Of a stretch of 32,250 nucleotides of DNA, positions 1-17,111 are shown piece after piece. The position numbers were made by a program, and so were the translations under genes. The notes below the pieces were generated by a model that worked only from the letters and a program-made list of their open reading frames with translations, searched no databases and was not told the origin of the DNA. Numbering within the stretch: the stretch's first letter is position 1; each line of letters opens with the position of its first letter. The DNA is from Planctomycetota bacterium (GTDB lineage Bacteria > Planctomycetota > PUPC01 > DSUN01), in contig VGYV01000009.1 in the NCBI GenBank assembly GCA_016872855.1, forward strand, positions 1-32,250, in the 5' to 3' direction.

Positions 1-376
1 AATTCGCCGAACTCGGGCCGTGCTCGGAAGCCAAAGACTGGCTGAAGCCAGGACTCCGAACGCGTTCGTTCCTTGTTTGGAGTCCTGCCTTCAGGCAGTC
101 TTGGCTTTCCGCAACAGAAACTACGTAGAGTTGGCAGCGCAACTCGCCACACGAGCCCTTGGCAACGGCGAGGAACTGGTGGAACTCCTTGTCGCCCCCC
201 CTTTCGAACCCCTCCGCGATGTTGGACATCACGGATACGGCAGCGCGGCGAATCTGGTCACGCAGCCCGAAGTCACGGCTGAAGCCGCCGGCCGACGTGA
301 GTTGGTAGATCGCCCTGGTCAGTTCGCGCGCCTTCTTCCAGGCATCCATGTCCTCGAACCGCTCGATCTTGCCCAT
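1..376 (-). CDS. Four-helix bundle protein (23S rRNA IVP family), 3' end altered and off the window edge
   Basis: Reading leftward from ATG at 376 (a second ATG lies at 379; AAGGAG sits just upstream and suits 376 better), the protein begins [20 protein letters not shown] and contains [18 protein letters not shown], the signature of the small four-helix-bundle family first found inside 23S rRNA intervening sequences. The family's biochemical role is unknown. The frame is open to base 1, about 125 codons, already near normal family length. From about residue 88 the expected last helix is replaced by residues encoded by a palindromic element at 26-110 (including DCLKAGLQT). The true C-terminus is therefore lost or remodelled. 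The gene follows pstB on the same strand after a 74-base gap but has no obvious role in phosphate uptake. The family assignment is firm; whether the protein still folds is uncertain. Confidence 0.8.
26..110. repeat. Palindromic element with two hairpin-bearing arms
   Basis: The arms 36-61 (+) and 75-100 (-) share the pattern GACTnnCTGAAGnCAGGACTCC followed by nAAC, and the flanks 26-35 and 101-110 are also near-inverted copies. Each arm holds its own small hairpin with a TGAA loop. The centre is about 13 bases. A third single arm of the same family lies at 16503-16530. The element lies within the open frame of the four-helix-bundle gene. Confidence 0.8.
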
Positions 377-417
377 CATCCGCTCCTTCCTGTCTGCACT
401 TCCGACCTTGGGCTCTT

Positions 418-13840: not shown

Positions 13841-13929
13841 GGGAGTGCAGAGGGGAAGACTCCAGGTTCGACGGCTGAACGGCCAATGCGCCCGTACCGC
13901 TGATGGTACCCACGAGTGGGGGTGTGAGG

Positions 13930-15957
13930 ATGGTCATCGGGAGCGTTGAGGTAAAGCGCTTTCGCTCGATACGCGACACGCGGCTGGATTGTGACGCACT
14001 GACGGTTCTGGTGGGCAGGAACGGGGCAGGGAAATCCTCGTTCCTTCACGGCCTGCGGCTCTTCTATGACATTGCCGCTCCCGTCACTGAGGAAGACTTC
14101 TTCGCGAGGGACACCAGTGCGCCAATCGAGATCAGGGTAACCTATGGGGGGCTGCGTGACGTCGAGAAGAGCGAGTTCCGTCCGTACCTCCATGGGGAGA
14201 CCCTCACCGTGACCAAGCGGATCTGGATTGAGAATGGTCGAGTTGAGCAACGTTACTACGCCGCGTCACCCCAGATCCGCGAGTTCGCTGAAATCCGCAG
14301 GCTCCCTGGTAAGAGGGAACGACTGTCCGCCTGGAGGGAGCTTGTGGAAAGTGGCACATTGCCGCAACTGTCGGGTGCCGCGAGGAGCGCCGATGACGTC
14401 GAGCGCTTCATGAGCGAATACGAGACCCTACATCCGGAGCTTCTGGTCGCGATTGAGCGAGAGGAGCAGTTCTTCGGCCCGAGAAATGTAGGCGGTGGCA
14501 AGCTGGACAAGTACACCAAGTATGTCCTGGTGCCCGCCGTCCGTGATGCATCGGAAGAGACCGGGGGCCGCAAAGGCGCCGTATACCAGTTGATCGATAT
14601 GATCGTGCTCAGAAAGGTCAACATGAGGGAAGATGTCCAGCAACTGAAGGCCGACTTCGAGCAGAGGGTCAAGCGGGTGTATAGCTCCGAGAACCTCACC
14701 GAACTCCCCGAGCTGGGGGACTCGATCAGCGCAACTCTTGCACGATTCGCTCCCGGGTCGAGGCTTAACCTGAAGTGGGGCGAAGTGACCCCGCCAGAGG
14801 TGCAGCTTCCTGCGCCAAGGACTACGCTGGTCGAGGACGACTTCGAGGGTGATGTGGACCGCAAGGGTCATGGACTTCAAAGGGCCCTCATACTGAGCCT
14901 ACTGCAACACTTGGCAGTGCTGACTGGGTTGGAACGGCCATCCGTGGGAGGCGGCAATGAGACAGCTGCAACGCTGGGGAAGACAGGCACTGAAGCTTCG
15001 CGGGGTCCTGACCTGATCTTGGCTATCGAGGAGCCAGAGCTGTATCTGCATCCATCGAGGTGCCGGTACTTGGCGGGGCTGCTCCTCAAGCTGGCGTCGC
15101 AATCATCCACAAGTCCAGATCCGAGCAACCAGATCATCTACACGACCCATTCACCCTACTTCGTCGACCTGGATCGCTTTGACCAGATCAGGATGGTTAG
15201 GAAGAGCGCTGGCGCCGCGTCGGTTCCTGAGACTGTCACAAACAGCTACAGCAAGGAGGACGTGATAGGGGAACTCGCACGCATTGGTGAGACCGATCCG
15301 TTGTCCTTCTCAACCGCGGGCTTCGTCGCTCACTCGAGGCCAGTGATGACCACCGTAGTCAGTGAGGGCTTCTTCGCCGATGTGGTCGTTGTGGTGGAGG
15401 GGTGGTCTGATGTTGGCGTGCTGTGGACGATCCAGGGGATTCTCGGCAAAGACTGGGCGCAGCTTGGCATCAGCGTAGTCCCTGCCGGAAGCAAGACCTC
15501 ACTCGACCGCCCGGTGATTGTGTTCAGAGGATTTGGCATCCCAACCTACTTCGTTTTTGATACTGACTCTACAGAGGACAAGGACAAGGTTGGCGCCCTC
15601 AAACATGCCAAGTATTGCCTGAGGCTCGCAGGTTCCGACCAGGCAGGTTTCCCTGGCACCCAGGTGCATGGTACATGGGCTGCCCTTGACCCGGATCTGG
15701 AATGCGTGATCGAGTCCGCTGTGGGTACGGCAGCATACCGGGAATGCAGGGCACAAGCGACCGTCGAACTCGGGTACTCTCGGCCTGAGAAGGCAATCAA
15801 GAATATCGAGGTGGCTTGCCGGATGGTGGCGCTGCTGTATGAGAGAGGCCACAGGGTCCAGCAGCTTGAGGAGCTGGTTGAAAAGGTGACCAGCCTGCAC
15901 CCGAGCCACGCGCGAGAGCAGCCCGGAAACCATGGGGCGCCAAGAGTAGGGACATGA
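13930..15957 (+). CDS. OLD-family ATPase/TOPRIM nuclease
   Basis: This is an ATP-dependent nuclease of the overcoming-lysogenization-defect type, about 675 residues. The N-terminal SMC/RecF-like ATPase shows VKRFRSIRDTRLDCD and Walker A GRNGAGKS (29-36), a signature-like KGHGLQRALILSLL near 317, and Walker B LILAIEEPELYLHP near 362. It then has IIYTTHSPYFVDL with the H-loop His. The C-terminal TOPRIM domain has VVVVEGWSDVGVLW near 486-499 (metal-binding Glu) and FVFDTDST near 540 (the Asp-x-Asp pair). ATG 13930 starts the conserved fold; ATG 13903 and GTG 13924 are possible. Its stop overlaps the next start as ATGA. Base use is less GC-rich than the neighbours (35 of 60 at 14881-14940, against 41 of 60 at 16021-16080), suggesting transfer. 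No GajB-like helicase is adjacent. Confidence 0.87.
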   Translation: MVIGSVEVKRFRSIRDTRLDCDALTVLVGRNGAGKSSFLHGLRLFYDIAAPVTEEDFFARDTSAPIEIRVTYGGLRDVEKSEFRPYLHGETLTVTKRIWIENGRVEQRYYAASPQIREFAEIRRLPGKRERLSAWRELVESGTLPQLSGAARSADDVERFMSEYETLHPELLVAIEREEQFFGPRNVGGGKLDKYTKYVLVPAVRDASEETGGRKGAVYQLIDMIVLRKVNMREDVQQLKADFEQRVKRVYSSENLTELPELGDSISATLARFAPGSRLNLKWGEVTPPEVQLPAPRTTLVEDDFEGDVDRKGHGLQRALILSLLQHLAVLTGLERPSVGGGNETAATLGKTGTEASRGPDLILAIEEPELYLHPSRCRYLAGLLLKLASQSSTSPDPSNQIIYTTHSPYFVDLDRFDQIRMVRKSAGAASVPETVTNSYSKEDVIGELARIGETDPLSFSTAGFVAHSRPVMTTVVSEGFFADVVVVVEGWSDVGVLWTIQGILGKDWAQLGISVVPAGSKTSLDRPVIVFRGFGIPTYFVFDTDSTEDKDKVGALKHAKYCLRLAGSDQAGFPGTQVHGTWAALDPDLECVIESAVGTAAYRECRAQATVELGYSRPEKAIKNIEVACRMVALLYERGHRVQQLEELVEKVTSLHPSHAREQPGNHGAPRVGT

Positions 15958-17111
15958 AACGCGGCTTTGCCAATCTTCCGCTGCATGGGGGGAAGGCGCC
16001 AAGGTGGCTGTTTGCCCGGATGGTGAAGATGGCGGGGGCCATCGCGGAGGTGGTCTGCCAGGAGTTCGGGCCGGAGGAGTTGCTCGCGCGGCTGTCGGAC
16101 CCCGCGTGGTTCCAGGCGTTCGGGTGCGTGCTGGGGTTCGACTGGCACTCGAGCGGTGTGACGACGACGGTGTGTGGGGCGCTGAAGGAAGGGACAAGGC
16201 CATTCGCCCGCGAGGCCGGGCTGTTCGTGGCGGGGGGCAAGGGGGGCCGCTCGCGCAGGACGCCGCAGGAGATCGAAGAGGCGTGTCTGGCGACGGGGCT
16301 CGACGCCGCTCCGCTTGTCTACGCCTCGCGGATGTCGGCGAAAGTGGATTCCGCGGCGCTTCAGGACGGCTATCAGATTTACCAGCACTGCTTTCTCTTC
16401 ACGCGGGGTGGGCGCTGGGCGGTGGTGCAGCAGGGGATGAATGAGGCGAACGGCTATGCCAGGCGCTACCACTGGCTGGCGGGGGTGGGGGAGGTGAGAG
16501 AAGACCGCCTGAAGGCGGGACTCCAAACGAGCCAGAAGACGTTCGATTTCGTGTGCGAGCCGCACGCGGCGATTGCGGCGGAGGCGACGGGCACGGTGCT
16601 GAACATGGTGGCCCGCGAGAGCGACAAGGCGCGGGATTCGTCAGCCGAGGCGGCAAGGCTGCACCCAGACAAGCTGCTCGCCGAGGTGGCGTCGCTTCAG
16701 ACCCTCACGCTGCCCCGCCGCCACGAGGTGCTGCTGCGCGACATCAACCCCGAACATCTTCACAAGGTGCTGCTGACCACCTACGAACAGCAGCCGAGCG
16801 ACTTCGAGCGCCTGCTGGGCCTGCCGGGGGTGGGGCCGAAGACGATTCGCAGCCTCGCCCTCATCAGCGAGTTGGTGTATAATGCCCCCGCGAGCCAGCG
16901 CGATCCTGCGGCTTACAGCTTCGCCCACGGGGGGAAGGATGGCCATCCCTATCCCGTCAGCCGCGAGGTCTACGACAAGTCGATTGATTTCCTCCGCGAG
17001 GCGGTGAACCAGGCGAAGGTGGGGTTGACCGACAAACGGGAGGCGATGCGAGAGCTCAGCGCGTTCCTCGCGCAGTGGCGAGGCCGTGAAACGCCCCCAT
17101 TCGGGGGCTGA
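15954..17111 (+). CDS. DUF763 family helix-hairpin-helix protein with an in-frame palindromic insert
   Basis: This 385-residue protein carries the DUF763 hallmarks MKRGFANLPLHGGKAPRWLF, CVLGFDWHSSGVTTTVCGAL, LFVAGGKGGRSRRTP, LVYASRMSAKVDSAALQDGY, RWAVVQQGMNEANGYARRYH, LGLPGVGPKTIRSLALISEL and YSFAHGGKDGHPYPV. GVGPKTIRSLA is a helix-hairpin-helix, so DNA contact is likely, but the family has no established activity. Its ATG overlaps the OLD nuclease stop, so the two are probably translated together. Between RYHWLA and FVCEPHAAI the protein carries about 15 extra residues including DRLKAGLQT, encoded by the same palindromic element seen at 36-100. The last codons form a GCCCCC-ATTC-GGGGGC hairpin. 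Confidence 0.9.
   Translation: MKRGFANLPLHGGKAPRWLFARMVKMAGAIAEVVCQEFGPEELLARLSDPAWFQAFGCVLGFDWHSSGVTTTVCGALKEGTRPFAREAGLFVAGGKGGRSRRTPQEIEEACLATGLDAAPLVYASRMSAKVDSAALQDGYQIYQHCFLFTRGGRWAVVQQGMNEANGYARRYHWLAGVGEVREDRLKAGLQTSQKTFDFVCEPHAAIAAEATGTVLNMVARESDKARDSSAEAARLHPDKLLAEVASLQTLTLPRRHEVLLRDINPEHLHKVLLTTYEQQPSDFERLLGLPGVGPKTIRSLALISELVYNAPASQRDPAAYSFAHGGKDGHPYPVSREVYDKSIDFLREAVNQAKVGLTDKREAMRELSAFLAQWRGRETPPFGG
16503..16530 (+). repeat. Third arm of the palindromic element, translated inside DUF763
   Basis: The segment has the GACnGCCTGAAGGCnGGACT core followed by CCAAAC, matching the arm at 75-100 read on its minus strand. The reading frame is the same in both genes (D-x-L-K-A-G-L-Q-T). 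Confidence 0.85.
17093..17108 (+). terminator. GC-rich hairpin at the DUF763 stop codon
   Basis: GCCCCC (17093-17098), loop ATTC and GGGGGC (17103-17108) end one base before the TGA. There is no T-tract, so termination is possible but unproven. It has the same loop as the hairpin at 17169-17184. Confidence 0.45.

Follow-up and report, generated by a model that had tools for sequence, protein, structure and literature searches.

A family of GGAG/GTAG-headed REPs in a Planctomycetota genome, with copies inside predicted genes and inside a MITE

The presence of one palindromic sequence within two unrelated reading frames raises the question of whether mobile DNA has been tolerated as coding sequence, and of what kind of element could have brought it there. 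In the window analysed here (the whole stretch of 32,250 nucleotides, contig C9 of the assembly), the original prediction placed one arm of such a palindrome in a four-helix-bundle protein and another in a DUF763 protein. Both arms proved exact, as did their readings: the minus-strand arm at 81-100 (-), GACTGCCTGAAGGCAGGACT, is translated as DCLKAGLQT in a minus-strand ORF of the PF05635 four-helix/23S-IVP family, and the plus-strand arm at 16503-16522 (+), GACCGCCTGAAGGCGGGACT, as DRLKAGLQT in the DUF763 frame (PF05559). There is a third arm, GACTGGCTGAAGCCAGGACT, at 36-55 (+). Shuffled versions of the window are expected to yield 0.01 arm matches, and in none of 100 shuffles were there three or more. 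The genome-wide search that had been proposed as a check, carried out over 8.88 Mb in 1143 contigs with up to two mismatches, returned 860 matches to the arm GACYGCCTGAAGGCRGGACTCC and none to the reversed pattern. The shuffles and the genome matches, together with the absence of the DUF763 insert from orthologues described below, led us to reject the reading of the two copies as chance or artefact. A search of the window against Rfam matched no family. It should be borne in mind that the assembly is fragmented, with 89.5% completeness and 5.8% contamination.

Read on the opposite strand, the repeated unit is GGAG-TC-CTGCC-TTCA-GGCAG-TC, that is, a covarying stem of 5 bp with a TTYA loop, headed by GGAG or GTAG. 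All unit counts and gene placements that follow derive from the 2.34 Mb of the genome that were read (about 26%), in which a scan for GGAGT/GTAGT-headed hairpins found 235 units. A second scan, blind to the head, recovered 296 GC-rich hairpins with a 5-bp stem and a TTYA loop, in 236 of which GGAG (186) or GTAG (50) stands at a constant distance; the commonest head is hence a variant of the published GTAG. The stem positions left unconstrained in the search are complementary, which points to compensatory change: pair 2 is C-G in 205 cases, G-C in 54 and something else in 2, and pair 4 is T-A in 99, G-C in 68 and C-G in 66, with one subfamily of 38 copies showing a G.G mismatch at pair 4. Inverted pairs (REPINs) are spaced by 42-44 nt, and inverted doublets hold 172 of the 235 units, the singlets presumably being REPIN remnants. 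The doublet in the window, composed of the left-arm unit GGAGTCCTGCCTTCAGGCAGTC at 79-100 (+), whose minus strand is translated as DCLKAGLQT, and the right-arm unit GGAGTCCTGGCTTCAGCCAGTC at 36-57 (-), with head GGAG, stem CTGGC/GCCAG and loop TTCA, is predicted to fold at -29.8 kcal/mol (hairpin z = -7.7). Head, covarying stem, inverted doublets and long fold are the anatomy of REPs and REPINs.

The placement of the units relative to genes, which were called with an ad hoc codon-usage gene caller, is strongly skewed. Only 42 of the 235 lie inside genes (24 in number), while 188 are intergenic and 5 supply the stop codon of a gene; the intragenic share is thus about 18%, against 80% expected at random. 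By reading frame, the intragenic units are distributed as 14, 13, 9, 5, 1 and 0 over the six frames; the sixth frame, in which the hairpin contains TGA or TAA, never occurs inside a gene. The peptides DxLKAGLQT, GVPPSGG, RPPEGGTPN and RSAGFSP recur according to frame. With these counts, a preference for the DxLKAGLQT frame was rejected as not real. Since five of the six frames are used in genes, the agreement in frame between the copies in the window, to which the original prediction had attached meaning, carries no signal and is roughly a one-in-four coincidence (chance about 0.27). Spacings divisible by three account for 10 of 15 REP pairs within genes, compared with 15 of 81 between genes (Fisher p = 0.0004).

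Genes for LpxK and FolC, for a PFL-like enzyme and for several glycosidases are among the REP carriers. A four-unit REP stretch in the PFL-like enzyme adds about 38 residues relative to 5i2a, and in FolC the REP falls within about 25 surplus residues that do not align. In LpxK (L116:8006-8033) the REP region aligns to 4ehw without a gap, and therefore looks like a replacement of residues rather than an addition. Comparison of a REP-bearing phosphodiesterase with the PDB gave no match. We also observed that the stretch in the PFL-like glycyl radical enzyme (L139:4731-4844) is a REP array with a 30-bp period that encodes EDGLKAALQT three times. The REP-bearing proteins are presumably made and functional.

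The clearest case in the window is the DUF763 gene (15954-17111, +; PF05559, E 6.5e-129), which is open and intact and present in a single copy in the genome. That other DUF763 proteins pass directly from the RYHWL region to the EPH region, as had been predicted, was confirmed in 18 orthologues from the phylum, all of which run RYHWL(G/S)-SKVxxFVxEPH and lack the 17-residue stretch containing EDRLKAGLQT; a native origin would have predicted these residues throughout the family, and their absence favours insertion. The 51-nt insert, GVGEVREDRLKAGLQTS, occupies 16482-16532 (+), EDRLKAGLQTSQK being a stretch of the DUF763 protein, and includes a single REP unit, GGAGTCCCGCCTTCAGGCGGTC, at 16503-16524 (-), the complement of which the gene reads as DRLKAGLQT. 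The repeat accounts only for the EDRLKAGLQT portion and a few flanking bases, the repeated unit spanning about 16498-16531, and the preceding 18 nt lie outside it. That the DUF763 residues are native and match the repeat by chance is scarcely credible, given that they are missing in the 18 orthologues and that 29-39 bp at this site are nearly identical to dozens of other loci. As far as sequence comparison goes, the reading of this copy as a REP insertion tolerated in frame holds. More generally, the idea of a dispersed palindrome translated as coding DNA is borne out by the DUF763 insert and by the at least 24 genes with copies.

The copy in the four-helix-bundle gene is of a different nature, and its presumed equivalence to an in-frame REP had to be abandoned. 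The native part of this gene (PF05635/TIGR02436) spans 122-379 (-) and covers positions 1-79 of 106 in the Pfam model and 2-73 of 109 in TIGR02436; it is interrupted after ...GELRCQLYV, where the paralogue on C520 continues with an ordinary C-terminus. A genome search with the ORF retrieved N-terminal paralogues and dozens of matches to the last 40 residues alone. The tail beyond ...GELRCQLYV is MITE sequence: positions 36-100 are the inner portion of a longer repeat at 1-121 (-), which comprises the first 121 of the 141 bp of a MITE (a 19-bp terminal inverted repeat, the REPIN and about 34 bp) and is cut by the contig end. Alignment of the copies places the terminal inverted repeat, GTTTCTGTTGCGGAAAGCC, at 103-121 (-), next to the 6-bp target site TACGTA at 122-127, the second copy of which is located past the end of the contig. 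Because the MITE fills the end of the ORF and the contig starts within it, tolerance by the four-helix protein is unproven. Just 5' of this gene, at 415-450, imperfect heptamer repeats (GACTTTC/GACTTTG) are translated in one frame. Neither the four-helix gene nor an ATPase/OLD-like gene at 13903-15957 was recognised by a codon-usage model built from this genome, and both may thus be recent acquisitions.

Elsewhere in the genome, the full layout of the MITE is a 19-bp terminal inverted repeat, the REPIN, 34 bp and a second 19-bp terminal inverted repeat. A blastn comparison of window positions 1-200 with the other contigs yielded 27 complete copies, 23 of which measure 141 bp and most of which are flanked by perfect 6-bp target duplications (e.g. 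TACGTA, TACCTA, TAGTTA). There are 122 matches to the terminal repeat genome-wide and about 60 MITE copies; among the MITE loci (L193-L220), variants of about 120 bp and other lengths exist, and many contigs of the assembly end inside a MITE. A search for an autonomous parent with the same terminal repeats covered 2.34 Mb and the first 100 places listed, and found no long pair.

One MITE, on contig C73 (L159:14356-14483), has the same termini and a target duplication CAAGTA (reported strand), but its REPIN, GTAGGGACAGGCGGCTCGCCTGTCC / GTAGCGACAGACGGCTCGTCTGTCG, belongs to another family; this REPIN likewise sits immediately behind the left terminal repeat. This arrangement indicates that the REPIN is separable from the MITE and suggests that REPINs are exchangeable MITE cargo. 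The further proposal that one set of hairpins travels as such interchangeable cargo through two unrelated mobilisers, a RAYT and a DDE-type transposase, is rather speculative, and we regard it as doubtful. The footprint of the MITE with its duplication is 141+6 = 147 bp, a multiple of three, and four of its frames are open; the REPIN-MITE chimera could accordingly be a translatable MITE. The frame-neutrality of the MITE is at present a matter of arithmetic alone, none of the 27 complete copies being clearly inside a gene on both sides. Among our findings, this combination of a REPIN with a MITE is the least familiar.

With regard to mobilisation of the REPs themselves, the genome contains 19 matches to Y1 transposases. 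One of these, a RAYT on contig C808 (L078), scores 85.1 against NCBIfam NF047646 (cut-off 80) and weakly (25 bits) against Pfam PF01797; GTAGTTCGGCCTTCAGGCGGTC, a family member with a GTAG head, lies 3' of it, and its 5' side is lost at the contig end. A RAYT from a Verrucomicrobia MAG, G064 (L236), which is 48% identical to L078, has G[GT]AGT[AC]CCGCCTTCAGGCGG doublets on either side. This pair of loci makes it likely, on comparative grounds, that RAYTs move these REPs. No REP of the GGAG family was detected within the flanking DNA examined at the other 18 of the 19 Y1 transposase loci, and general hairpin scans around RAYTs brought up other REP families. Contigs of the same genome (L085-L164, L251-L290) also contain several other GTAG/GGAG hairpin families, with loops of 3 nt, e.g. 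GTAGCCGCAACCGTCCCGGTTGCGG and GGAGTGCGGCGACGCAGTCGCCGC, one of these families bordering the RAYT locus L068. Variants of the arm occur in 22 named genomes of Verrucomicrobia, Planctomycetota and Acidobacteria, at 1-40 copies each; within the organism's own class and phylum, one genome of the same family has 6 copies and 57 others have none. By GyrB, the nearest named genomes are the two named Planctomycetota (54 and 53%); Verrucomicrobia reach 48-52% and Acidobacteria 48-51%, a comparison that is suggestive only.

Taken together, we consider it quite probable (roughly 0.85) that the arms belong to one abundant REP family of the GTAG superfamily that spread as REPINs, the DUF763 copy being a survivor and the copy at 36-100 the cargo of a MITE. 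Under this proposal, REPINs would be mobilised in trans, most probably by a RAYT acting via a single-stranded hairpin, and the copies would survive mainly between genes. An intragenic copy would survive only where its length does not shift the frame and the hairpin is stop-free in the frame read, as is possible in five of the six; the DUF763 copy would be such an intragenic survivor, and the copy at 36-100 would have arrived with a 141-bp MITE that inserted into the four-helix-bundle gene with a 6-bp duplication.

It might instead be argued that the intragenic REPs are not tolerated debris and have been selected, the peptide or the mRNA hairpin tuning the protein or its expression. In-frame tandem arrays such as the threefold DGLKAALQTE of the PFL-like enzyme, as well as the location of copies in enzymes that are expected to matter (LpxK and FolC), would agree with this; the host genes, however, are unrelated and use five frames, genes are strongly avoided (18% versus 80%), and slippage in multiples of three explains the growth of arrays without selection. 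We therefore deem selection improbable, and the notion that the MITE is the spreading unit somewhat more so. In the latter scheme, a DDE transposase that recognises GTTTCTGTTGCGG would move everything and the REPs would be internal debris, in accordance with some 60 MITEs bearing perfect 6-bp target duplications and with the fact that the copy first noticed lies in one of them. The proportions are nevertheless unfavourable, with 122 matches for the terminal repeat and 860 for the REP; the terminal repeats of the MITE are missing from most REPINs and from the DUF763 copy, and the MITE at L159 pairs the same termini with a REPIN of another family.

An element of the Rickettsia type (RPE/CGTC-tagged), finally, would share the lifestyle of a palindrome tolerated in frame within genes, and yet we find it very unlikely here, because the heads are GGAG/GTAG, not CGTC, and a RAYT accompanies the REP, CGTC repeats having been described without an associated transposase (PMC3733652). 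Heads and RAYT association led us to discard the CGTC superfamily as a candidate.

The preferred reading, a REP family spread as REPINs, provides an environmental, probably planctomycetotal lineage with a family of 860 arm matches, a likely RAYT and at least 24 predicted translated insertions. The many natural insertions of one peptide of about 10 residues in known enzymes (LpxK, FolC) make it possible to measure what it costs proteins to harbour a mobile hairpin. These results also call for caution when DxLKAGLQT or GVPPSGG recurs as a motif in the proteins of PVC bacteria, since such motifs represent repeat DNA and not domains.

As to known systems, the Rickettsia palindromic elements put forward as precedent do resemble the present family in being translated in frame within unrelated proteins, but differ in head motif and mobiliser. 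A closer and previously published parallel is provided by the intragenic GTAG-REPs of the verrucomicrobium Opitutus terrae. GTAG REPs were described in PVC bacteria by Di Nocera et al. (2013; PMC3733652), who found the most intragenic units in O. terrae, more than half of the inserts being dimers or groups that encode 20-30 residues, and stop codons supplied by REP ends. Our family resembles those elements in having a tetranucleotide head, a short stem that covaries and dimers in inverted orientation, in reaching hundreds of copies, in being inserted in frame into many genes and supplying stop codons, and in its PVC host; it differs in a mostly GGAG head, a TTYA loop and a 5-bp stem, a separation drawn from the published description, the main text of that paper giving GTAG with GTGG/GYRG variants and no GGAG. 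With the RAYTs and REPINs of Nunvar et al. (2010; PMC2817692) and Bertels and Rainey (2011; PMC3116915) it shares inverted doublets at fixed spacing, a long hairpin and, in the verrucomicrobial genome, a RAYT flanked by its REP, although published REPINs are described as extragenic and about 18% of the units here lie in genes. The 141-bp element is a typical MITE in being non-coding, with 19-bp terminal inverted repeats, a 6-bp target duplication and about 60 copies, and is unlike MITEs in carrying a complete REPIN as cargo and in that its parent transposase was not found in the 2.34 Mb or the places listed. Hence, the REP family is new while its kind is already known, in-frame intragenic REPs of a PVC genome having been published in 2013, and the less familiar features are the mostly-GGAG head and the union of REPIN and MITE.
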